A DNA stretch of 24,833 nt from a virus. The DNA is taken from positions 1 through 24,833 of IMG/VR virus record IMGVR_UViG_3300029787_000309. One strand, given 5' to 3'. The notes under the pieces were generated by a model, which searched no databases, had not been told where the DNA came from, and saw only the letters and a program-made list of their open reading frames with translations. Below are positions 1,035 to 20,205 of the stretch, in pieces; the first letter of the stretch is position 1; every line of letters begins with the position of its first letter. Made by a program: the position numbers and the translations under genes.

Positions 1035-4000
1035 TGGGTAGTGTAGTTGATGCTGTTGTTAATGTCGTTAACGATTTTATTGGTTGGTTGTTACCAATAC
1101 CAGATGTTCCTGAGTTCGGTGCTTCTGAACAAGTTCGTGGAGTATTAATAAATAAACAATCAAACAATGCACAAATACCTGTAGTTTATGGAAGGCGAAA
1201 AATTGGTATTACAAGAGTGTTTGTAGAATCTTCTGGAACTGATAATCAATATTTATTTGTTGCGGGTGTTGTTTGTGAGGGTGAAATAGAAGAAATAGAA
1301 CAAATTTTTATTGATGATAAAGTTGTTTTATTTAATGGGGATTTAGATCATGGAGTAACGAGAGAAGTAGCAGAAGATGATTTAAACTTTTATAAAGACT
1401 CATCACATATACAAATTCAAGCTTTTTTAGGGCAAGATGACCAGATTGCTTCATCAGTCTTAACTCAGTCTTTTAGTTGGTCTACAGATCATAGATTAAG
1501 AGGTGTTTGTTATTTAGCTTTTAGGTTTAAATGGAATCAAGATATATATAGTTCTATTCCAGATATTAAGGTTATTTTGAAAGGGAAAAAAGTTTTTGAC
1601 CCTAGAGATTCAACTACAGGATACACTCAAAATTCAGCATTAGTTTTATTAGATTATCTTAGGAATAATAGATATGGGAAAGGTATACCAGATGATGCTT
1701 TTGAAACTAATTTTGCATCTTTTCAGACTTCTGCAAATGAAGCTGATACTGAAATAGTGCCTAGATCAATAACAGTTACACCAGTAGCGGGTATAACAAA
1801 ACAAGATATAAATGGATATTACCATGACCGCCCATCTTTTTTTGTTGATAAATTTATTAGAAGTCAAGAACAAGTAACATCAATAAGCGGTATTTCAAGT
1901 GGTACTTATTCATCAGATAGATTTTTTGGTTATATAAATGCACCTTCAACAAATACATTTGAATTTCAAACAACATCAGATGATGCAAGCCATGTTTATA
2001 TTGGTAATAACGCACAAACTGTAGATAATTTAATAAAAGAAATAGAGAAAAATAGATCATCTAAATTAATAGTAAATAATGGTGGATTACACCCCACAGT
2101 AACAAAATCTGGCTCTAAGGCTCTTGTAAATGGTGAACAATATCCAATAGTTATTTATTATGGTCAAGCTAGAGGTGGCTCTAATATGACCTTTAGATGG
2201 CGAGTAAGTGGTGGTACTTATGCCACAGATTTATCACCAATATTTTCTAATGGAGAAAATACAACAGATGAAGTTCCAGCAGTTATCAAGTTTGAAACTC
2301 ATGCTGTTTTAGACACAGATCAAAAAGTTATTGAAAATGTAAAAAAATTATTAAATCCAATGAGTGCTTTATTTACTTATAATAATGGAGTTTATAAGGT
2401 AAAAATAGAGGGAACTGGTTCTGCTTCAAAAACTATAACATCTGATAATGTCGTTGGTGGTGCTAAAGTATTAGGCGAAAGAAAAAACAATAAATATAAT
2501 CGTGTAATAGGAACTTATGTAAATCCATTTAAAAATTATCAAAATGATACAGTTACATTTCCACCTAGTGACGATAGCAATATAGAAACAGCTTTTAAAC
2601 ACGCAACAATGTTAGCAGTAGATAATAACACATTATTAGAGGGTAATTTTCAATTTCCAAATGTTACTAATACTTATAATGCAGAAACTTTATGCGAAAT
2701 TATTTTAAGACGTTCAAGAAACCAATTACAAATTCAATTAACACTTACATCTGAATTTTTAGAATTAGAAATTGGTGATATTGTTGCAATCACTTACCCT
2801 AGTGGTGGATTCAATGCAAAACCTTTTCGTGTTTTAGGTTTAACAATAAATGAAGATTTAACTGTAAATGTTCAGTTGTTTGAACATCAAGATAATTTTT
2901 ATACATTTAATGAAAAAAATGTAATTCCAACAATACCAGATACAACTTTGCCAAACCCTTTTATAGTACAAACTCCAACAGTTTCAGCTACAGATGAATT
3001 AAGGGCAAGAAATGAGGAAGCAATAGCTGTATTATTGGTTAATGTAACAGCAACAGATTTATTTATTAATGATTTCGAAGTACAAGCAAAACGATCAACT
3101 GATTCTGTGTTTATTAATTTAGGTCGTGGCAGTTCATCACAATTTGAATTAGTGAATGTTGAGGATAATGTTGTATATGATATTAGAGCAAGGTCTGTTA
3201 GTTCTATTAGTCGATCTTCATTTGTAAGTATACAGCATCAAGTTGTAGGTAAAACAGAACCCCCAGAAGATGTAACAAACTTTAGTGTTAATATTATTGG
3301 AACAGAAGCCCATTTAGGGTGGACACCAGTAAGCGATTTAGATTTATCACATTATAGAATAAGGCATTGTAGGGAAACTAGTGGGGGTACATATGCTAAT
3401 TCTATAGATATAGCTGATAAAGTATCAAGACCCGCAAATACTGTAATTGTACCCGCTATGACAGGCACATATTTTATTAAAGCTGTGGATAAAGTCGGTA
3501 ATTCTTCAAGAAATGCTGTTAGTAAAGTTGCAATTATTGAGAACATAAAAGGGTTAAATGCGGTTGCAACATCGACACAAAGCCCTAATTTTACAGGTTC
3601 AAAAACAAATACTGTAGTTGTGGATAATAAACTTCAATTAGGTACATCTAATTTATTTGATAGTGTTGCAGGAAACTTTGATGATGCTTCTGGATTATTT
3701 GATGCGGGGCAAGGAAATATTGCTAGTTCTGGCACATATGAATTTGATACACATATTGATTTAGGTTCTGTTTATACTAGCCGAGTAACTGCAAATATGA
3801 ATGTTGCAAATTTTAGTTATGTAGACTTATTCGATAGTGCTACAGGTAATTTTGACGATAGAGATGGAGATTTTGATGGTGACCCCTCAGAATTTGATGA
3901 TACTAATTCAGAATTATTAGTTGCTACCACAGAAGGCGATCCATCTGGTTCACCTACATATACTGATTTTAGAAAGTTTTTTGTTGGGGATTATAAAGCA

Positions 4001-4342
4001 AGAGCATTTAAATTTAAGGTTCAGATGACAAGTACAAAAGGCACAGCAACCCACCAAATTTCAGCATTATCGGTGACTGTAGATATGCCAGATAGGGTAT
4101 TTTCAGAATCAGACATTGTTAGTGGTACTAGTGCAAGTGGTAAAACTGTTACATATTCACCCGCTTTTAAACAGGTTCAAGGGATAGGAATTTCTGCAAG
4201 TAACTTAACAAGTGGAGATTACTATGCTATAACAAATAAAAGTGCTACAGGATTTACAATTGAGTTTTTTAATAGTTCCAATGCAACAGTAAGCAGAACA
4301 TTTGATTATGTTGCTAGAGGATATGGAGAGTTAGCAAGTTAG
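1034..4342 (+). CDS. Lambda J-like tail tip/host-recognition protein with PA14-like insert
   Basis: An 1102-residue protein, the largest in the window, forming the tail tip that contacts the host. The N-terminus has the J-family hallmark with a conserved PVVYGRRKIG stretch (about 50-59), followed by the tip core to about residue 240. Residues about 245-400 look like a PA14/GLEYA carbohydrate-binding domain: FFGYINAP, FEFQTTSDDASHVYIG, NGEQYPIVIYYGQARGG and MTFRWR reproduce the PA14 pattern. The second half of the core follows (about 410-640), then two fibronectin-III-like modules (about 640-740 and 740-825), then a region with a duplicated Asp-rich motif (LFDSxxGNFDDxxGxFD, about 874 and 932). 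The start overlaps the acyltransferase stop. Family confidence is high; domain edges are approximate. Confidence 0.88.
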   Translation: MGSVVDAVVNVVNDFIGWLLPIPDVPEFGASEQVRGVLINKQSNNAQIPVVYGRRKIGITRVFVESSGTDNQYLFVAGVVCEGEIEEIEQIFIDDKVVLFNGDLDHGVTREVAEDDLNFYKDSSHIQIQAFLGQDDQIASSVLTQSFSWSTDHRLRGVCYLAFRFKWNQDIYSSIPDIKVILKGKKVFDPRDSTTGYTQNSALVLLDYLRNNRYGKGIPDDAFETNFASFQTSANEADTEIVPRSITVTPVAGITKQDINGYYHDRPSFFVDKFIRSQEQVTSISGISSGTYSSDRFFGYINAPSTNTFEFQTTSDDASHVYIGNNAQTVDNLIKEIEKNRSSKLIVNNGGLHPTVTKSGSKALVNGEQYPIVIYYGQARGGSNMTFRWRVSGGTYATDLSPIFSNGENTTDEVPAVIKFETHAVLDTDQKVIENVKKLLNPMSALFTYNNGVYKVKIEGTGSASKTITSDNVVGGAKVLGERKNNKYNRVIGTYVNPFKNYQNDTVTFPPSDDSNIETAFKHATMLAVDNNTLLEGNFQFPNVTNTYNAETLCEIILRRSRNQLQIQLTLTSEFLELEIGDIVAITYPSGGFNAKPFRVLGLTINEDLTVNVQLFEHQDNFYTFNEKNVIPTIPDTTLPNPFIVQTPTVSATDELRARNEEAIAVLLVNVTATDLFINDFEVQAKRSTDSVFINLGRGSSSQFELVNVEDNVVYDIRARSVSSISRSSFVSIQHQVVGKTEPPEDVTNFSVNIIGTEAHLGWTPVSDLDLSHYRIRHCRETSGGTYANSIDIADKVSRPANTVIVPAMTGTYFIKAVDKVGNSSRNAVSKVAIIENIKGLNAVATSTQSPNFTGSKTNTVVVDNKLQLGTSNLFDSVAGNFDDASGLFDAGQGNIASSGTYEFDTHIDLGSVYTSRVTANMNVANFSYVDLFDSATGNFDDRDGDFDGDPSEFDDTNSELLVATTEGDPSGSPTYTDFRKFFVGDYKARAFKFKVQMTSTKGTATHQISALSVTVDMPDRVFSESDIVSGTSASGKTVTYSPAFKQVQGIGISASNLTSGDYYAITNKSATGFTIEFFNSSNATVSRTFDYVARGYGELAS

Positions 4343-4351
4343 GAGAATTAA

Positions 4352-5512
4352 ATGTCACAAAATGATTTAACAATAGCTAATCAAGGGTTCGCATCTTTTA
4401 GATCAGATCTAAATAGTGCCTTACAAGCATTAGGTTCTTTAAGTTCTGGAACGTCAGCACCTTCAACAACGTTTTCCTATCAATTATGGTATGATGTAAC
4501 AAACAATATTTTAAAAATTCGTAATGGTGATAATGATGCCTTTATAAATTTATTTTCTTTTGACCAAACAAACGACAATGTTTCTGCTTTTACTATAGGA
4601 GGGAGCATAACAACAGAGGGTGGTGATAACTTATTCAGAAATAGTTCTGGAAGTTCTTCTGTATCGATAATTAGTGCAACAAATGGTATATCAAGCCTAA
4701 AATTAGGTGATACAGCAGACTTTGATGTTGGGGTTATTGCTTATAATAATTCTGGAAATTCAATGGAAATTCAAACCAATGACTCAGCAAAAGTTATAAT
4801 TGATAGTGCGGGAAATTTTACATTACCATTAGATAACCAAAAACTTTTATTAGGTGCATCAAATGACCTTCAAATTTATCATGATGCATCTCATAGCTGT
4901 GTTCAAGATTTGGGTACTGGAGATTTAAGGCTAAAAACTAATAATACAATTATGTTGTTAAAAGGAGACTCGGAAGTATTAGCACAGTTTGATGCAGATG
5001 GGCCTGTTACTTTAAAATATGATAATACAACAAGATTAGCAACTAACCCTCATGGTATACAAGTAGATGGATATTCTCACCAAACAGCACCAGTTGTTAC
5101 AATTATTCATTCAAATGCAACTACGACAATAAATGATAATACTATCACAAACATACCAATGCAAGTAAGTGCTTTAGATACTCATAGTTTATATGATGCT
5201 ACAAATGATAGAATATTAATTCCATCAGCATTTAATGGACATTATTTTTTATTTAAATGGGCAGTTACTATTACTGGACCGGGCGATAATATGGCTGGTC
5301 ATCTTTATAAAAATGGAGCAACAGTCCAAGATGATAGGCGATTTTATGTAGGTGATGAAGGCGAAAGTATAACTTTTCAAGGTGTTTATTTTGCTACAGT
5401 TGCAACAGGTGATTTCTTTCAAGTTTTTGGATTTTCTGATAAAGGTAGTGGTTCAAGTTCAAGTGTAGCAGGTTTGCAACTTACACATATATTTGCTACT
5501 AAATTGCATTAA
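4352..5512 (+). CDS. Tail fibre with C1q-like C-terminal domain
   Basis: A 386-residue fibre. The N-terminal segment (MSQNDLTIANQGFASFRSDLN...SSGTSAP.TTFSYQLWYD...LKIRNGDNDAF) matches a widespread phage fibre attachment module that would anchor it to the tail tip. The middle (about 75-235) is Asn/Ser/Gly-rich beta repeat, including LKLGDTADFDVGVIAYNNSG and LLLGASNDLQIYHDASHS, a motif very common in marine phage fibres. The C-terminal 140 residues (NIPMQVSALDTHSLYDATNDRILIP then FLFKWAVTITG then DDRRFYVGDEGESI) read like a C1q/TNF-type jelly roll, a typical receptor-binding trimer head. An AGGAG ribosome-binding site sits just upstream, overlapping the preceding stop. Confidence 0.82.
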   Translation: MSQNDLTIANQGFASFRSDLNSALQALGSLSSGTSAPSTTFSYQLWYDVTNNILKIRNGDNDAFINLFSFDQTNDNVSAFTIGGSITTEGGDNLFRNSSGSSSVSIISATNGISSLKLGDTADFDVGVIAYNNSGNSMEIQTNDSAKVIIDSAGNFTLPLDNQKLLLGASNDLQIYHDASHSCVQDLGTGDLRLKTNNTIMLLKGDSEVLAQFDADGPVTLKYDNTTRLATNPHGIQVDGYSHQTAPVVTIIHSNATTTINDNTITNIPMQVSALDTHSLYDATNDRILIPSAFNGHYFLFKWAVTITGPGDNMAGHLYKNGATVQDDRRFYVGDEGESITFQGVYFATVATGDFFQVFGFSDKGSGSSSSVAGLQLTHIFATKLH

Positions 5513-5521
5513 GGAGTTATT

Positions 5522-5893
5522 ATGGCAATAGATTATTTAAGCTCTAAAGTTAAATTATACTGTGCATCAAAAGGTGTATCTTCTGTTAATTTTACAAAAG
5601 ATGTTTTACTGCAAGATGATGGAGATGGTTCTTATATAAAGGAATGGAATTTAGACATTGATAAACCGACAGATGCAACATTAAATAAATTTGATGGGCA
5701 AAGTTCAAGGCGAATGAGTATTTTAAGAAATCAAAGAGATAAATTATTAAAAGAAACAGATTGGTTAGCTTTATCAGATGTAACAATGAGTGACGATTGG
5801 AAAACTTACAGGCAATCTTTAAGGGATATTACGACACAAACTCCAAGTGACGATTCTTTAAGTAATATTACATTTCCAACAAAACCTAGTTAG
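5522..5893 (+). CDS. Tail fibre assembly chaperone-like protein (gp31/XkdW type)
   Basis: A 123-residue protein directly downstream of the fibre, the usual place for a fibre assembly protein. The segment RNQRDKLLKETDWLALSDVTMSDDWKTYRQSLRDI (written as about residues 67-101) carries the R..RN.LL..TDW...SD......W..YRQ.LRDIP signature of Phage_tail_APC (PF16778) and XkdW-like chaperones; the usual final Pro is replaced here. These proteins help fold or attach fibres and may not remain in the virion. The upstream site is AAGGAG with good spacing. Confidence 0.75.
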   Translation: MAIDYLSSKVKLYCASKGVSSVNFTKDVLLQDDGDGSYIKEWNLDIDKPTDATLNKFDGQSSRRMSILRNQRDKLLKETDWLALSDVTMSDDWKTYRQSLRDITTQTPSDDSLSNITFPTKPS

Positions 5894-5902
5894 GAAGAAA
5901 AA

Positions 5903-9013: not shown

Positions 9014-9385
9014 TCAACACCTCACGGGAATGTTTTTATGGATTATTTGTTTTATTTGATCCAGGCATTCAGTTAAACCCCCCTTGACTACAAAATGGGG
9101 TGTACCAAGTGCTTTTGATTGTACCGCCCACAACTTTTGATTATTGGACAATTTGCCCTTTTCGTTTTTAAGTTCAATATATAATAATTTCCCTGGAAAA
9201 TACTCAATTATAATATCTGGACAGCCAGGTTTTAAACCCATTCTTTTCATTTTAGCATGATAGGAAATAGACCTTTTACCTTCATTGGCAACATGGAAAT
9301 GTCTAAAATAATAAGTATTAGCTAAATAATTTAAATATTCATTACAAGCAATCTGAATTTCTGATTCTTTCGTCACAGGGGGCAT
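9014..9385 (-). CDS. VRR-NUC domain nuclease
   Basis: A 123-residue protein of the VRR-NUC family (PF08774), a PD-(D/E)XK-type endonuclease fold used in phages for replication, repair or host DNA attack, often as a stand-alone Holliday-junction or flap nuclease. Catalytic motif: G54-C-P56-D57, then E71-L-K73, followed by S80-N-N-Q83; the N-terminal ESEIQIACNEYL (about 7-18) is the usual first helix. It is the only reverse-strand gene in the window, converges with the late operon and diverges from the early region. The reverse-strand site AGGTGA lies close to the ATG. Confidence 0.88.
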   Translation of the reverse strand: MPPVTKESEIQIACNEYLNYLANTYYFRHFHVANEGKRSISYHAKMKRMGLKPGCPDIIIEYFPGKLLYIELKNEKGKLSNNQKLWAVQSKALGTPHFVVKGGLTECLDQIKQIIHKNIPVRC

Positions 9386-14135: not shown

Positions 14136-15020
14136 ATGAATTTAGAAAAAACAGAAGTAATTGACGAAAATTCGAAGCCTAAGGACAAATTAAAAGCCTG
14201 GTATCTTTTTACAGATGATTTTATTGCGGGTACTCAGCACCTCACAAATGAGCAAATAGGGATATATATTAGGCTACTTTGTTATAATTGGAATAAGAGA
14301 TGCAATGGTATACCATGCGATAGTATGACATACTATAGGATAGGTAGTTGTTTTACAGAAAGTGAAAAAGCAAGTTGTCATAAAATTTTAGAACAATTTT
14401 TTATCCAGGTTGGGGATCATTTCCAGAATGAAAGGCAACTCCAGGAATATTTATTTATTACTAAGAGAATTGATGCTTCTAAGAAAAATGGCAAGTTAGG
14501 TGGCAGACCTAAAAAACCTAGCATAGAACCTAGACTAGAACCTAGCACAAACCCCCCTACCACTACCCCTACCCCTACCACTACTAAAACCAAGAATAGT
14601 TATAATGCTCTTTTTAATACTTTTTGGGATAAGGTAGGAAATAAAGTAAGTAAGGGGATAGCAGAAAAGAATTATATAAAGTTAGATGAAGAATGGATTA
14701 ATAAACCGCAAGATTTAGCGATAATGTATAATAATTATTTTAATTCTGTAGCGGATAAACAATTTGTAAAGCAACCTGCTTTCTGGTTATCGGCTAAAAA
14801 ATATTTAGATGAAAATCCAAAAAATAAAAGTACTGATAAAATTGAACAATATGACATGAGATTAAAAATGTTTACGGAAGCGGTACAAAAGAAACAAGGT
14901 AGTGCATTTATTCAAAGTTATGCAAAGAAATATCCTTATGATGTTTCCAGGGCTATCCAGGAAGGGCATATAACAAAAGAAGATGCTAAAAAATATTTAG
15001 ATATGGAGAATTGGGTATGA
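14136..15020 (+). CDS. DUF1376 replication-initiator-like protein with AT-hook-like motif
   Basis: A 294-residue protein. Residues about 20-110 match DUF1376 (PF07120): KAWYLFTDDFIAGTQHLTNEQIG then IYIRLLCYNWNK, a winged-helix-like domain typical of phage replication initiation proteins. Residues 120-128 contain GGRPKKP, an AT-hook-like GRP core, followed by a Pro/Thr linker (about 128-155) encoded by tandem repeats. The C-terminal part contains FNTFWDKVGNKVSKGIAEKN and FWLSAKKYLDENP, like the C-terminal segment of lambda O-type proteins. The start at 14136 is set by GGAGATC at 14126-14132. It probably marks replication origin firing; no helicase or polymerase is in the window. Confidence 0.8.
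   Translation: MNLEKTEVIDENSKPKDKLKAWYLFTDDFIAGTQHLTNEQIGIYIRLLCYNWNKRCNGIPCDSMTYYRIGSCFTESEKASCHKILEQFFIQVGDHFQNERQLQEYLFITKRIDASKKNGKLGGRPKKPSIEPRLEPSTNPPTTTPTPTTTKTKNSYNALFNTFWDKVGNKVSKGIAEKNYIKLDEEWINKPQDLAIMYNNYFNSVADKQFVKQPAFWLSAKKYLDENPKNKSTDKIEQYDMRLKMFTEAVQKKQGSAFIQSYAKKYPYDVSRAIQEGHITKEDAKKYLDMENWV
14515..14550 (+). repeat. Three 12-bp iteron-like repeats inside the DUF1376 gene
   Basis: AACCTAGCATAG, AACCTAGACTAG and AACCTAGCACAA follow each other with a strict 12-bp period. The repeated AACCTAGC is the same octamer that forms the arms of promoter units 1 and 2. In lambda the replication origin is a set of iterons inside gene O, the same arrangement. The repeat also gives a four-residue peptide period ([KE]-P-[SR]-x), so protein-level selection could explain it. 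Confidence 0.55.
14558..14581 (+). repeat. Four TACC(A/C)C hexamer repeats
   Basis: TACCAC, TACCCC, TACCCC and TACCAC run in tandem directly after the iteron-like repeats, giving a pyrimidine-rich, C-rich top strand very unlike the AT-rich surroundings. They encode the Pro/Thr linker. The strand asymmetry would suit a single-stranded or structured region next to an origin, but may only reflect the linker. Confidence 0.5.
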
Positions 15021-15190
15021 GATTAATTACATTAAATTATGATTTGAAATCAGAAGAAGTAAAACCAAAATTTCTTAAATCTTTTGATGTTTTGCCAGAT
15101 GAAATAAAAATGGATTGCTTAATAGATGCTTTATATTTTTTAGAAAATTATAGATTAGATTTACGTGATAAAATGTATAAAGAAAATTAA
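15017..15190 (+). CDS. Small hypothetical acidic protein
   Basis: A 57-residue frame overlapping the DUF1376 stop by ATGA (MRLITLNYDLKSEEVKPKFL, then helix MDCLIDALYFLENYRLDLRD). Compact alpha/beta look, no family recognised. Coupling to the initiator-like gene suggests co-expression. Confidence 0.55.
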   Translation: MRLITLNYDLKSEEVKPKFLKSFDVLPDEIKMDCLIDALYFLENYRLDLRDKMYKEN

Positions 15191-15192
15191 TT

Positions 15193-15408
15193 ATGTTTTT
15201 AGATAATGGTTTGACATTAGAGCAACAGGAACACGCAGATAATGTTTATGAAACTCTTATGTCAGACCTTAAAAGCATAAATCCTAAACTATATCAAAGA
15301 TTAAGAGGAAAAGAACTAACAGAAAAAGACGTTTATAAGTTAATAAATAGTAAAAATAAAAACATAATAATAAATGATAAAGAGCAATTAGAATTTTTTG
15401 GAGATTAA
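15193..15408 (+). CDS. Hypothetical small protein
   Basis: A 71-residue helical protein (LTLEQQEHADNVYETLMSDL; INPKLYQRLRGKELTEKDVY; C-terminal acidic EQLEFFGD). It begins two bases after the preceding stop with only a weak purine-rich site. No family recognised. The next gene's ribosome-binding site lies inside its last codons. Confidence 0.55.
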   Translation: MFLDNGLTLEQQEHADNVYETLMSDLKSINPKLYQRLRGKELTEKDVYKLINSKNKNIIINDKEQLEFFGD

Positions 15409-15409
15409 T

Positions 15410-15616
15410 ATGAATGTAATAGACATAACAAAACCATTAGAAAGAAAAAGGGCAACATACCTCACATTCTACAAAGATGGTATATTTGATGGAATATTAA
15501 ACCAAAAACCAGACCCTAGAAATACTTCATCTGCTTATTATAAAAAGGGTTTTGATGATGGTTTGAAATTGTTAGAATTAATAAAAGAATATAAAATTGG
15601 AGATGATAATGTATAG
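15410..15616 (+). CDS. Hypothetical small protein
   Basis: A 68-residue protein starting MNVIDITKPLERKRATYLTF. The ATG at 15410 is preferred because GGAGATT lies just upstream (15400-15406). It contains a GFDDGLKLLELIKEYKIG helix. No family recognised. Its 3' end overlaps the next gene start by eight bases. Confidence 0.58.
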   Translation: MNVIDITKPLERKRATYLTFYKDGIFDGILNQKPDPRNTSSAYYKKGFDDGLKLLELIKEYKIGDDNV

Positions 15617-15932
15617 CAAAAGTAGTGTAAAAGATAGTTACTATGGTTTAAAAGAGCTTTATAATGAATTAAAAAACAAGAACAAAAAGAAAAAAGCTAA
15701 AGTAAAAGCTAAAGTAAAAGCTAAAGTAAAAGATGAAGAAAAATTTGAAGATGTACCAATAGAATTATCTGATAAGGATAAAGAGGGAAAAATAAAAAAA
15801 AATAGTTATATGAATTTTTATCTAAGTGTTAAATCAAATAGACAATTAAAAGATTTGTTGATTCCAAGTGGTTTAACTGCAACTAACAGAAATTATGCAG
15901 ATGTTAGATTTGTTAAGGATTTGGATAAATGA
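15609..15932 (+). CDS. Lys-rich protein with KAKV repeat
   Basis: A 107-residue protein from the ATG at 15609, placed by GGAGAT a few bases upstream. The centre (about 22-42) is a run of lysines followed by three KAKV repeats, then an acidic DEEKFEDVP stretch. The C-terminal part (SYMNFYLSVKSNRQLKDLLI, PSGLTATNRNYADVRFVKD) looks folded. The repeated basic segment may bind DNA. It ends with an ATGA overlap into the ParB-like gene, so it may belong to that module. No family recognised. Confidence 0.58.
   Translation: MYSKSSVKDSYYGLKELYNELKNKNKKKKAKVKAKVKAKVKDEEKFEDVPIELSDKDKEGKIKKNSYMNFYLSVKSNRQLKDLLIPSGLTATNRNYADVRFVKDLDK
15693..15728 (+). repeat. Three perfect 12-bp tandem repeats
   Basis: AAAGCTAAAGTA is repeated three times without a mismatch, encoding (KAKV)3. 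Perfect identity suggests recent slippage expansion; copy number probably varies between relatives. Confidence 0.85.
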
Positions 15933-16534
15933 AAGTAAAACAAATAAGTATTGATAAAATAATACCTTATCATAATAACCCCAGGAAAAACCAAGCAATA
16001 GATAAAGTTGCTAGTTCAATTAATGAATATGGATTTCAACAACCTATTGTGGTTGACCAAAATATGGTTGTAATTGTAGGGCATACAAGATTATTAGCAT
16101 CAAAAAAATTAAAATTAAAAAAGGTACCTATTGCAATAGCTGATCTTACAAAAAGTCAAGCGAAGGCTTATAGATTAGCTGATAATAGAACAAATGAAGA
16201 TAGTTCCTGGGACGAAGAATTATTAAAAGGTGAATTATTAGATTTAGAGGGTTTATTAAATTCAACAGGTTTTGAAGATAGTGAATTAGAAAAATTATTA
16301 GACGATCCAGAACCAGAAGATGAACCAGATATTGAATTTTCAGAAGAAATAGGAGAACAACATAATTATGTAGTTTTATATTTTGACAATGATATTGATT
16401 GGCTTTCAGCTCAAACACATTTTGGATTAAAAACAGTTTCATCAAAGAGATCAAATGGAAAACCCTGGAGTAAAGGTGTTGGAAGGGTTATAAATGGAGG
16501 AAATTATTTAACAAACTTACAAAAGTTTTCATAA
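15929..16534 (+). CDS. ParB/sulfiredoxin-fold protein linked to DNA modification or packaging
   Basis: A 201-residue protein. The N-terminal ParB-like nuclease domain (about 1-110) is clear: NNPRKN (16-21), GFQQPI (35-40), VGHTRLLASKKL (50-61), then PIAIADLTKSQAKAYRLADN. An acidic linker (LDDPEPEDEPDIEFSEE, about 129-145) leads to a C-terminal domain (YVVLYFDNDIDWLSAQTHFG; SKRSNGKPWSKGVGRVING). This two-domain form is common just upstream of phage terminases and DNA methylase or glycosyltransferase genes, and in comparative genomics it is associated with modified-base systems. Catalysis is not assured; ParB-fold phage proteins can bind, nick or hydrolyse nucleotides. It directly abuts the glycosyltransferase gene. 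Confidence 0.82.
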   Translation: MKVKQISIDKIIPYHNNPRKNQAIDKVASSINEYGFQQPIVVDQNMVVIVGHTRLLASKKLKLKKVPIAIADLTKSQAKAYRLADNRTNEDSSWDEELLKGELLDLEGLLNSTGFEDSELEKLLDDPEPEDEPDIEFSEEIGEQHNYVVLYFDNDIDWLSAQTHFGLKTVSSKRSNGKPWSKGVGRVINGGNYLTNLQKFS

Positions 16535-17265
16535 TGGAAAAAATAGAATTTTATTCGCCTTCATATAAAAGAGCAGAAACATCGATAACTCAAAACTATT
16601 TACCTTTTTGCAAATATGTTGTTGCTGAATTTGAAGCAGAAAAATATATAAAAAACAAAAAAGATGTTTGGGTTGTGCCGAATGAAGCACAAGGTTCAGT
16701 AAGTAAAATAAGAAATTATATTTTAAATAATGCTGAATCCAAAAAAATTGTTATGTTAGATGATGATATGACTAGAATTGGAAGGTGGCAAAATCAAAAA
16801 GTAAAAAAATTAAATGCAGAAGAAGTTTTAGAGTTTTGCGAAAATGCGTTTAATTTGTGTGATGATTTAAATATAAAATATTGGGGAATGAATTTACTGC
16901 CAGATAAAGGTGCTTATAGGGAATATACACCTTTTAGTTTAACTGTTCCAATATTAGGACCTTTTCAAGCTTTTAATAATTTAGATTTAAGATATTCTGA
17001 ATCGCTTCCATTGAAAGAGGATTATGACTTATCTTTGCAAGTTTTAAATAAATATAGAAAAACATTAAGATTTAATGCTTATCATTATTATGTAAAACAA
17101 CATACAAATATAGGTGGTTGTGCTGATTATAGAACATTAGAAAGAGAAAAAGCACAGATAATTGCATTTCAGAAAAAATGGGGAAAGCAAATAGTACAAG
17201 AAGATAAATCAAGTAAAGGGTTTGATATTAACCCAATAGTTAAAATACCGATTAGAGGGGTATAA
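16534..17265 (+). CDS. TET-associated-type glycosyltransferase (GT-A fold)
   Basis: A 243-residue glycosyltransferase like those described with phage TET/JBP base-hydroxylating enzymes (TAGT family). The N-terminus FYSPSYKRAETS (about 6-17) is the nucleotide-sugar side; LDDDM (75-79) is the DXD metal motif; LGPFQAFNNLDLRYSESLPL precedes L160-K-E-D163-Y-D, the likely catalytic acidic stretch; HHxxx-like HYYVKQHTNIGGC closes the acceptor region. It could attach a sugar to a modified base in phage DNA, hiding it from restriction enzymes. No hydroxylase or hydroxymethylating enzyme is in the window, so the acceptor base is unknown, and a protein or lipid acceptor is not excluded. It shares an A with the small terminase start. 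Confidence 0.78.
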   Translation: MEKIEFYSPSYKRAETSITQNYLPFCKYVVAEFEAEKYIKNKKDVWVVPNEAQGSVSKIRNYILNNAESKKIVMLDDDMTRIGRWQNQKVKKLNAEEVLEFCENAFNLCDDLNIKYWGMNLLPDKGAYREYTPFSLTVPILGPFQAFNNLDLRYSESLPLKEDYDLSLQVLNKYRKTLRFNAYHYYVKQHTNIGGCADYRTLEREKAQIIAFQKKWGKQIVQEDKSSKGFDINPIVKIPIRGV

Positions 17266-17570
17266 TGGCAAGACCTAAAAAATATGAAATAGACCCAAAA
17301 CAAGTTCAAAAATTATCTGCATTAGGTTGTACTAATAAAGAAATATCGGAATTTTTTGGTTGTTCAGCAGACCTTTTAGAAAAACGTTATTCGGAATTTC
17401 TGACAAAAGGGAGGGCAGAGCAAAAAATAAGGTTAAGACAGTTGCAATGGAAGTCTGCAGAAAAAGGAAATGTTACAATGCAAATATTCCTGGGTAAGAA
17501 TATGCTAGGGCAACAAGATAGGATTGAATCTAATGAATTGGAAGAGCCTTTGGTTTGGTCTGCTGATTAA
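17265..17570 (+). CDS. Terminase small subunit-like DNA-binding protein
   Basis: A 101-residue protein immediately before the large terminase and coupled to it (TAATG). The N-terminal part is a helix-turn-helix (KQVQKLSALGCTNKEISEFF, GCSADLLEKRY), followed by a helix (QKIRLRQLQWKSAEKGNVTM) and QIFLGKNMLGQQD, the layout of small packaging subunits that recognise the phage DNA. These assemble in rings and hand the DNA to the motor. Confidence 0.85.
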   Translation: MARPKKYEIDPKQVQKLSALGCTNKEISEFFGCSADLLEKRYSEFLTKGRAEQKIRLRQLQWKSAEKGNVTMQIFLGKNMLGQQDRIESNELEEPLVWSAD

Positions 17571-18787
17571 TGCCTTTAACAAGTCCACAAAAAAAAGTAA
17601 TTGAAGATAGTTCCAGATTTAGAGTTTTAATTACTGGAAGAAGATTTGGAAAAACATATTTAGCAATAAATGAATTGGCAAAATTTGCTAGTCAACCTAA
17701 TAAAAAAGTTTGGTATGTTGCACCAAGTTATAGACAAGCAAAGGCGATATGTTGGTCGGTATTAAAAGAAAAGATGATAAATCATAAATGGGTGAAAGCA
17801 ATAAACCATAGTGATCTTACGTTAACTTTAAAAAATAACTCACAAATCTCTTTAAGGGGATCAGATAACGAAAATTCTTTAAGGGGCGTTGGGCTTCATT
17901 TCCTAGTGATGGACGAGTTCGCAGACATAGACAAACAAGCATGGTATGAGGTTTTAAGACCTACTTTATCTGATACAAGAGGACATGCTTTATTTTGTGG
18001 TAGTCCTAGAGGATTTGGCAATTGGAGTTATGAATTATTTAAACAAGGTGAATCAAATAATGATTGGCAATCTTTCAAATATACAACACTTGAAGGTGAG
18101 CAAGTAAGCCAAGATGAAATAGAACAGGCTAAACAGGATTTGGATTTAAGAACATTTCAGCAAGAATATGAAGCAACCTTTGTTAATTATTCTGGTATGA
18201 TTTATTACAATTTCAGTAGAGATAAAAATATAATTGATAAATATAATAAAGATCATCAGTTTTTACATATCGGTTTAGATTTTAATGTAGACCCAATGAC
18301 AGCAGTAGTTTGTAATATTGAGGGTGAGAAAATCCTGGTTATTGATGAAATACAAATATATAGTTCAAATACTAATGAAATGTGTGAAGAAATAAAAAAC
18401 AGATATTCAAATAAAAAAATTATTGTTTATCCAGACCCAAGTGCAAGACAAAGGAAAACTTCTGCAGGTGGCACTACAGATTTAGCTATTTTAAAAAATG
18501 CAGGTTTTGAGGTAAAATGCAAAAATACAGCACCATTGGTTAGAGATAGAATAAATGCAGTAAATTCAAAGTTAAAAAATGTTAATGGCAAAAATAATTT
18601 ATTTATTGTATCATATTGCAAGAATGTCATTAAAAGTTTAGAAAGACAGATATATAAAGAGGGAACACATATACCAGATAAAGAAAGTGGCTACGATCAT
18701 ATGAATGATGCACTAGGGTATTTGATTGAATATAATTTTCCATTAAAAAGGAATTTTGTTACTAAACCACAACAGAGGTGGAGTTAA
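17570..18787 (+). CDS. terL: Terminase large subunit
   Basis: A 405-residue DNA-packaging motor. ATPase: Walker A GRRFGKT (23-29), Walker B FLVMDE with D115-E116, coupling motif GSPRG (about 143). Nuclease: GLDFNVDP (D237 is the first metal ligand), YPDPSAR in the middle, HMNDALGY (D380) near the C-terminus. The size is slightly short for the family but all key motifs are present. It pumps DNA into the prohead and cuts the concatemer. It starts on the stop of the small subunit and overlaps the portal region, so the packaging genes form one block. Confidence 0.95.
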   Translation: MPLTSPQKKVIEDSSRFRVLITGRRFGKTYLAINELAKFASQPNKKVWYVAPSYRQAKAICWSVLKEKMINHKWVKAINHSDLTLTLKNNSQISLRGSDNENSLRGVGLHFLVMDEFADIDKQAWYEVLRPTLSDTRGHALFCGSPRGFGNWSYELFKQGESNNDWQSFKYTTLEGEQVSQDEIEQAKQDLDLRTFQQEYEATFVNYSGMIYYNFSRDKNIIDKYNKDHQFLHIGLDFNVDPMTAVVCNIEGEKILVIDEIQIYSSNTNEMCEEIKNRYSNKKIIVYPDPSARQRKTSAGGTTDLAILKNAGFEVKCKNTAPLVRDRINAVNSKLKNVNGKNNLFIVSYCKNVIKSLERQIYKEGTHIPDKESGYDHMNDALGYLIEYNFPLKRNFVTKPQQRWS

Positions 18788-20205
18788 TGAACAGGGAAAC
18801 ACTTACAAGCAAACATGATCTATGGCATTCAAATATAAGTAATTGGGAATTTTATATTCGCAGTTATTTAGGGGGTAATGATTACAAAAACGGATATTAC
18901 CTTCACAGATATATTTTAGAATCACCAGAAGATTATGACCAAAGAATAAGACATACCCCCCTGGATAATCATTGCAAAAATGTTGTTCAAATATATACAA
19001 GTTTTTTATGGAGAGTTTCACCGACTAGAGATTATGGTAGTTTAGATGGTGATGAACAATTAAGTTCATTCCTGGCAGATGCTGATTTAGATGGAAGATC
19101 ATTTAATACAGTTATGCGAGAGGTACAAATGAATGCGAGTATTTATGGGAATTGTTGGGTTATTATAGACAAACCACAATCAAATGCAAATACTAGAGCA
19201 GAAGAATTACAGCAAGATATTAGACCTTATATTTCAATATTAACTCCAGAAAATGTTGTGAATTGGAATTATTCAAGATCAACAAGTGGCAGATTTTATT
19301 TAGACATGTTGATGGTGATTGAGGATATAAATGAAGAAAGAGCAATAGTAAAAGTATTTACAGAGGAATCAATAAGCACTTATGAGGTCGAGGAATACAC
19401 AAAAGATTATGCAGAAGGGGATTATAAGCTATTAGAAGAAATACCTAACCCTTTGGGTAAAATACCAGCAGTAAATGTGTATAATCTTAGAGGAGCAAAA
19501 CGACCTATTGGCATTTCAGATTTGGCAGATGTAGCTTATTTACAGCAATCCATTTATAATGATTATTCAGAAAAAGAGCAGTTAATTAGACTAGCAAATC
19601 ACCCGAGTTTAGTTAAGACTCCTAATGTGGAAGCAAGTGCGGGAGCGGGTGCAATAATAGAAATACCAGAAGATTTAGATTCAGCTTTAAAGCCTTATAT
19701 TATTCAACCAAGCGGACAAAACCTAGATGGCATAATGAAATGTATTCAAAACAAAGTTGATGCAATCGACAGGATAACTCATATGGGAAGTGTAAGGGCA
19801 ACAGGCACACAAATAGCTAGTGGAATTGCATTACAAACAGAGTTTCAATTATTAAATGCTAGATTATCAGAAAAAGCAGATTATTTAGAAAATGCAGAAG
19901 AGCAAATATGGGGTTTGTTTGCTATGTGGCAAGATAAAGAATTTGATGGAAAAATAAATTATCCAGATACTTTTGACATAAGAGATTGGGCTAATGATTT
20001 ACAATATCTACAAATTGCTAAAGCAAGTGGCATTAAATCTGAAACTTTTAATAAGGAATTAGATAAGCAGATTGCTCAAGCAGTTATTGACGATAATGAA
20101 ATGATTAAAACAATAAATGAAGAAATAGATTCAACCAGGGCTGTAAGAGGTCAATTTCAGACAGTAGAAGTGGAAGGACAAACAGTTGGCGAGGAAGAAA
20201 CGTAA
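18787..20205 (+). CDS. Portal protein (DUF4055 type)
   Basis: A 472-residue portal, forming the 12-mer channel at one capsid vertex. The DUF4055 family (PF13264) pattern is seen in TPLDNHCKNVVQIYTSFLWR (about 58-77), DADLDGRSFNTVMREVQMNA then YGNCWVIIDKP, LSPENV-like LTPENVVNWNY, and HMGSVRATGTQIASGIALQTEF. The C-terminus is acidic. The start at 18787 is preferred because GGTGGAG lies directly upstream, inside the terminase end; the GTG at 18778 would translate that site. The last 20 bases are overlapped by the next small gene. Confidence 0.9.
   Translation: MNRETLTSKHDLWHSNISNWEFYIRSYLGGNDYKNGYYLHRYILESPEDYDQRIRHTPLDNHCKNVVQIYTSFLWRVSPTRDYGSLDGDEQLSSFLADADLDGRSFNTVMREVQMNASIYGNCWVIIDKPQSNANTRAEELQQDIRPYISILTPENVVNWNYSRSTSGRFYLDMLMVIEDINEERAIVKVFTEESISTYEVEEYTKDYAEGDYKLLEEIPNPLGKIPAVNVYNLRGAKRPIGISDLADVAYLQQSIYNDYSEKEQLIRLANHPSLVKTPNVEASAGAGAIIEIPEDLDSALKPYIIQPSGQNLDGIMKCIQNKVDAIDRITHMGSVRATGTQIASGIALQTEFQLLNARLSEKADYLENAEEQIWGLFAMWQDKEFDGKINYPDTFDIRDWANDLQYLQIAKASGIKSETFNKELDKQIAQAVIDDNEMIKTINEEIDSTRAVRGQFQTVEVEGQTVGEEET

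Follow-up and report, generated by a model that had tools for sequence, protein, structure and literature searches.

The window, by which we mean the whole 24,833-base virus record analysed here (G+C about 30%), carries a gene for a ParB-domain protein followed by a gene for a TET-associated glycosyltransferase (TAGT). These two genes form a real cassette, paired far beyond chance, which keeps a fixed order and usually lies just upstream of the small and large terminase subunit genes (TerS and TerL) in phages with unrelated terminases. We propose that it is probably a mobile DNA-glycosylation cassette of two components, in which the ParB-domain protein would recruit the glycosyltransferase. 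Modification of DNA by this pair is likely, by a route other than the standard TET one. The features on which the argument depends are as follows.

15929..16534, + strand: ParB-domain protein, 201 aa (ParB_N, acidic linker and C-terminal TAGT-associated domain; PF02195, phrog_620, AF2 model)
15929..16312, + strand: ParB N-terminal domain, residues 1-128, co-inherited with the terminase lineage
16331..16531, + strand: ParB C-terminal domain, residues 135-201, which tracks TAGT; proposed TAGT docking domain
16534..17265, + strand: TAGT, 243 aa, predicted GT-A fold (PF20691, AF2 model, viral structure neighbours)
16759..16767, + strand: DDD, DxD-type metal/nucleotide-sugar motif, TAGT residues 76-78 (invariant in 47/47 aligned TAGTs)
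17011..17028, + strand: LKEDYD motif, TAGT residues 160-165 (D163 invariant in the 47 aligned sequences)
17265..17570, + strand: terminase small subunit-like protein, 101 aa (phrog_309, E 1.4e-9; 1-base overlap with TAGT)
17570..18787, + strand: TerL, 405 aa (Terminase_6N, 42.2 bits)

The gene order from 5' to 3' is ParB, TAGT, TerS, TerL and portal. One-base stop/start overlaps (TAATG) link ParB to TAGT, TAGT to TerS and TerS to TerL, which suggests that TAGT, TerS and TerL are translationally coupled. The earlier note had described a ParB-fold gene and a GT-A glycosyltransferase gene coupled to the terminase genes, and the TerS PHROG match, the adjoining TerL and these overlaps agree with that description. 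The window TerL was 53-57% identical to those of pelagiphages and DSL-LC06, the pelagiphages HTVC112P, HTVC111P, HTVC202P and HTVC026P falling at 56-57%. No exact terminal repeat was found in the window, and the idea that it is a terminally redundant sequence was therefore rejected. Elsewhere in the window, the ORF at 639-1034, between two tail genes, matched HlyC (RTX toxin acyltransferase family, 59.7 bits, cut-off 25). A lysine-acyltransferase-like gene is unusual in a phage tail region, and a close relative (G027) has a different small ORF at this place. One further ORF matched the ArdC N-terminal anti-restriction domain, another matched EF-hand, and a VRR_NUC nuclease was found at 9014-9385 on the minus strand.

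The ORF at 16534-17265 matched Pfam TAGT (PF20691, E 4.3e-15, 56.6 bits, cut-off 27.5), its sole hit above cut-off, and PHROG family phrog_842, 'beta-glucosyl-HMC-alpha-glucosyltransferase' (E 2e-19). Among aligned TAGT sequences, 46/47 matched the Pfam model and 45/45 matched phrog_842. The sequence motifs that the earlier note had singled out in this protein held up, as both DDD and the Asp of LKEDYD were invariant in the alignment. The AF2 model had a mean pLDDT of 92.1 and a pTM of 0.90. Compared with a library of viral structures, it matched mainly TAGT-domain proteins among the named top hits; the named viral TAGTs in the top 20 gave TM 0.74-0.80, and a Klebsiella beta-glucosyl-HMC-alpha-glucosyltransferase gave TM 0.80. 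The PDB neighbours were generic GT-A enzymes alone (TM about 0.5), and no solved structure matching TAGT by sequence was found. Since the structural neighbours are viral TAGTs, the fold search did not place the protein among the glycosyltransferases of cell-surface glycans, the outcome that the earlier note had named as counting against its reading. The profile match, predicted GT-A fold and DxD-type motif identify the window protein as a TAGT.

The ORF at 15929-16534 matched Pfam ParB_N (PF02195, E 9.1e-10, 38.9 bits, cut-off 26.3) and phrog_620 (E 4.7e-48). Profile searches thus recovered both identities given in the earlier note, a ParB-like protein and a TET-associated-type glycosyltransferase. 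In the AF2 model, the N-terminal domain matched Noc/ParB CTPase structures by Foldseek (E about 1e-6). Among the ParB_N motif residues, G51 and N86 were invariant and R54 was conserved in at least 90%. Known members of the ParB/Srx fold bind nucleotides and DNA. The predicted ParB_N fold and the conserved Gly/Arg and Asn residues place the window protein in this class, and it may bind CTP. Residues 135-201 matched no Pfam or NCBIfam model; they carry the motifs YFDNDIDWLSAQTHF and SKRxNGKPWSKGxGRV, and AF2 confidence was low here, with pLDDT <50 over much of the domain. Classical ParB/Spo0J proteins have a central HTH, a C-terminal dimerisation domain and a ParA partner, whereas ParB_N was the sole domain matched in the window protein, its C-terminal domain differs, and no ParA-type family was seen in the window scans.

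The association of the two genes was examined from both sides. ParB residues 135-201 had 114 relatives in IMG/VR when searched alone, and we kept 80 of these loci; a TAGT profile query gave 244 relatives, with 80 loci kept and 74 of them newly fetched. Combining the ParB C-terminal loci with the TAGT-derived loci and removing redundancy left 90 non-redundant loci. TAGT lay downstream, on the same strand, of a conserved ParB C-terminal domain of about 65 aa in 90/90 of these loci. From the TAGT side, a ParB with this domain was present in 69/69 evaluable loci, the other 5/74 being cut by contig ends. Some loci belong to both sets, and this linkage applies to the window's TAGT subfamily. The TAGT of Nonlabens phage P12024L adjoins TET and methylase genes instead of ParB. 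A recognised TerL followed ParB-TAGT in 73/90 loci, mostly about 300-500 bp further on with one gene between. These TerL genes were picked up by 6/7 TerL seed sequences, and their median pairwise identity was 19%. ParB and TAGT were the sole two gene families common to 14/14 TAGT-bearing genomes compared. In GTDB genomes, no TAGT relatives of the window were found, and the ParB C-terminal query gave one locus, L216. We found no paper that links TAGT with ParB, although ParB may have been mentioned before in connection with systems of this kind.

The cassette varies around this core. Two different TAGTs stood in tandem in 24/90 loci, and several loci had a methyltransferase-like ORF between ParB and TAGT. 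The only such ORF scanned, from L183, was a class I SAM methyltransferase (Methyltransf_23). Genome G024 has an additional ParB-TAGT pair near the contig end opposite its main ParB-TAGT-TAGT set (L123, 14761-16076), and the C-terminal domain of this second ParB is divergent. In KaiHaiDragon (L023, 7824-9343), TAGT is followed by a UDP-glucose/GDP-mannose dehydrogenase-domain protein, a neighbour that hints at an oxidised nucleotide-sugar donor.

The ParB protein itself is a hybrid. Across 77 loci, distances of the ParB N-terminal domain correlated with TerL distances (Mantel r 0.76) and hardly with TAGT distances (0.11), whereas those of the C-terminal domain correlated with TAGT (0.45, the same with TerL controlled) more than with TerL (0.19); TAGT and TerL were nearly independent (0.07). 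Mantel p-values correct for shared ancestry only in part. In 45-residue windows sliding along the protein, residues 1-128 gave r 0.68-0.76 with TerL distance and about 0.1 with TAGT, and the switch from TerL-tracking to TAGT-tracking fell near residue 130. Among pairs with TerL at least 50% identical, the C-terminal domain correlated with TAGT at r 0.79. For ParB pairs with N-terminal identity <60%, mean identity was 35% in the N-terminal and 66% in the C-terminal domain. Two loci illustrate both cases: L075 resembles the window in TerL (95% identical) and ParB N-terminal domain (91%) with a TAGT only 53% identical, while L011 shares 28% in TerL and 37% in the N-terminal domain with 79% in the C-terminal domain and 70% in TAGT. 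By these correlations, residues 1 to about 130 go with the terminase lineage and residues from about 130 to 201 go with TAGT. The simplest reading is that the ParB C-terminal domain and TAGT were swapped jointly between phage backbones, with an exchange point inside the ParB gene; it is not easy to account in another way for a gene whose halves behave so oppositely. Joint exchange suggests a fit between the C-terminal domain and the enzyme, which this domain may physically dock.

What else occupies the position of TAGT bears on its substrate. In HTVC112P, ParB_N is followed by a TET/JBP dioxygenase (103 bits) and an FkbM methyltransferase upstream of a TerS-like gene, and the C-terminus of this ParB differs from that of the window. 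L216, a metagenome-assembled bacterial contig, has the order ParB-TAGT-ParB-Mom-Mom before a terminase-like gene, the second ParB and the two tandem Mom proteins (133 and 167 bits) occupying 3919-5894. Mom catalyses an acyl modification of N6 of adenine in DNA (PMC7824862). In Lactobacillus phage CR191, ParB_N is fused to N6_N4_Mtase before TerS. TET/JBP, Mom and N4/N6 methylases are all DNA-base enzymes, and this is the main reason for reading TAGT as DNA-directed. The tie between ParB, TAGT, DNA modification and the packaging locus that the earlier note had drawn is strengthened by these occupants.

Several annotations near this slot deserve correction or mention. HTVC112P gp18 (L114, 2636-3544), a TET/JBP dioxygenase, is mislabelled 'DnaJ chaperone / SNF2 DNA repair protein'. 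The label 'DNA modification methylase' is unreliable both for a 196-aa Javan291 protein with ParB_N alone and for a pre-terminase ParB_N-DUF4417 fusion in Streptococcus phage Javan576 (L110, 3998-5086); DUF4417 may be another DNA-modifying domain. In Lactococcus phage P335 (L112, 3989-5169), an ABC-type ATPase comes after ParB_N and before the terminase, and ABC-ATPase/GNAT is a predicted DNA-modification system (PMC7824862). Derivation of the pair from a simple ParB-methyltransferase ancestor was considered and rejected; they have just the N-terminal domain in common.

We further searched for enzymes that could make an acceptor for the sugar. Scans of the window revealed no TET/JBP, hydroxymethylase, 2OG oxygenase or DNA methylase, in agreement with the earlier note, which had seen no hydroxylase there. 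Tet_JBP (PF12851) was absent in 22 records and then in every TAGT record of a further 24, HTVC112P serving as positive control (105 bits). Thymidylate synthase (PF00303) was absent in 26 records and present in 9/14 control genomes, C5 methylase was absent in 22 records, and 2OG-FeII_Oxy_3 and Mom were absent in 17. Exact terminal repeats of 113 bases in G033 and 127 bases in G036 led us to take both relatives as complete. An unbiased Pfam scan of terminally redundant G036 showed no acceptor-making enzyme, and neither did 37 mostly non-structural Javan291 proteins (among the 25 of 30 Pfam families listed). An alpha- or beta-glucosyltransferase for a first sugar was likewise missing from the unbiased scans of the window (among the 25 of 26 families listed) and G036. 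An N4/N6 methylase model gave one weak match below cut-off in G036, overlapping the TAGT-A gene.

The earlier note had suggested that the base-modifying enzyme might lie in the part of the phage lacking from the window. G027 has a TerL about 95% identical to that of the window, and its two contig ends join in the early region. It reveals the content of this part: about 4.1 kb (14,883-19,013) of head-tail, tail-tube-like and long tape-measure-like genes, whose names follow from their position and from synteny with the annotated genome of HTVC202P. A hydroxylase in the missing part was rejected on this synteny. Moreover, no TET/JBP, thymidylate-synthase-type hydroxymethylase or C5-methylase was recognisable in the two terminally redundant relatives and two GenBank complete genomes. 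With some 4 kb of tail genes missing and no recognisable enzyme of these kinds in complete relatives, a hydroxylase there is unlikely. Because no phage TET/JBP, dCMP/dUMP hydroxymethylase or C5-methylase was recognisable, we infer that the sugar goes onto a base that is either unmodified or has been altered by an enzyme of the host or one that escapes recognition.

We propose the following model. The ParB N-terminal domain would act as an adaptor on phage DNA, perhaps binding CTP, and the C-terminal domain would bring TAGT to it. With a nucleotide-sugar as donor, TAGT would then glycosylate bases of phage DNA between its replication and its packaging, shortly ahead of the latter, and the glycosylated DNA would be protected from host nucleases. 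In relatives with tandem TAGTs or an inserted SAM methyltransferase, the sugar may be lengthened or capped. Two points count against the model: we know of no TAGT that works on a base which no other enzyme has prepared, and the conserved position of the pair could stem from late-operon regulation and not from a DNA substrate. A narrower version, in which ParB and TAGT alone attach the sugar in one step to an unmodified base (for example at an exocyclic amine), with no prior hydroxylation, and the ParB-fold protein is an adaptor, itself exchangeable, that joins phage DNA to different base writers (TAGT, TET/JBP, Mom and methylases), seems to us rather unlikely as a whole.

An oxidise-then-glycosylate pathway, in which an undetected or host hydroxylase supplies the hydroxylated base and TAGT only adds the sugar, would fit the family name, which reflects TET association, the side-by-side TET, TAGT and methylase genes of P12024L, and the ParB adjoining TET/JBP in HTVC112P. 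We hold it to be distinctly unlikely in view of the searches above, in which Tet_JBP, thymidylate synthase, C5 methylase and 2OG-FeII_Oxy_3 were absent and the scans of G036 and Javan291 proteins showed no such enzyme. No third family was common to all TAGT genomes, and one host hydroxylase is unlikely to serve phages that are unrelated and have both Streptococcus and Microbacterium among their known hosts.

TAGT might instead glycosylate something other than DNA, and ParB would then be its partner or its substrate; candidate acceptors are proteins of the virion or of host defence, a subunit of the terminase, and ParB itself. The generic GT-A enzymes among the PDB neighbours of TAGT transfer to small molecules, lipids or proteins, our searches gave no enzyme that would make an acceptor, and the TAGT gene directly precedes the late virion genes. 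This alternative is nevertheless doubtful, as the viral structural neighbours are TAGTs, the other enzymes in the ParB slot write on DNA bases, and the linked terminases are mutually unrelated, so that no common virion partner is evident. That ParB serves in plasmid-like partition or in regulation and adjoins TAGT by coincidence is hardly credible. The PHROG name 'ParB-like partition protein' points that way, but ParB_N is the one domain that the protein matches, the window scans gave no ParA-type family, the two genes pair almost without exception whichever of them is used as query, and the ParB C-terminal domain co-varies with TAGT. ParB-recruited transfer of sugar to DNA thus stays our preferred reading.

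What is new here is the obligate partner of TAGT, the position of the pair, the boundary inside the partner, and complete genomes with no recognisable acceptor-making enzyme, one of them from a cultured phage, Microbacterium phage KaiHaiDragon. If DNA is the acceptor, this would be an undescribed DNA modification in phages, and ParB_N would be a common adaptor for several kinds of base writer. To our knowledge, the T6 enzyme is the only characterised TAGT, and it extends an existing sugar. T6 TAGT adds glucose to glucosyl-hmC in DNA (PMC13216743). The T-even enzyme (beta-glucosyl-HMC-alpha-glucosyltransferase of T2/T6; PMC13216743, PMC13390438) shares with the window TAGT the PF20691 and PHROG families, the GT-A fold and the DDD motif. 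However, in T6 the second glucose is added to alpha-glucosyl-hmC made by a hydroxymethylase and an alpha-glucosyltransferase, whereas the window has no recognisable hydroxymethylase and a dedicated ParB partner; no dCMP hydroxymethylase was found in 26 records, and no alpha- or beta-glucosyltransferase in the window and G036 scans. TAGT homologs without an alpha- or beta-glucosyltransferase occur in 288/753 phage genomes with these glucosyltransferases and were proposed as potential novel transferases, and the 2026 literature treats as open what TAGTs do in phages with no enzyme for making their known acceptor (PMC13216743). The window resembles these 'solitary' TAGTs in lacking both enzymes, and differs in its strict ParB partner with a conserved C-terminal domain and its pre-terminase position. 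The TET-TAGT-methyltransferase set of P12024L uses the same transferase family, whereas no TET/JBP was found in the window or the scanned TAGT relatives. The ParB-TET-FkbM set of HTVC112P shares ParB_N and the pre-terminase slot with the window (TerL 57% identical), but the TET/JBP enzyme belongs to HTVC112P. CR191 has a homologous ParB_N at the same pre-TerS position; where the window has a small C-terminal domain and a separate TAGT, the CR191 chain continues into an N4/N6 DNA methylase.
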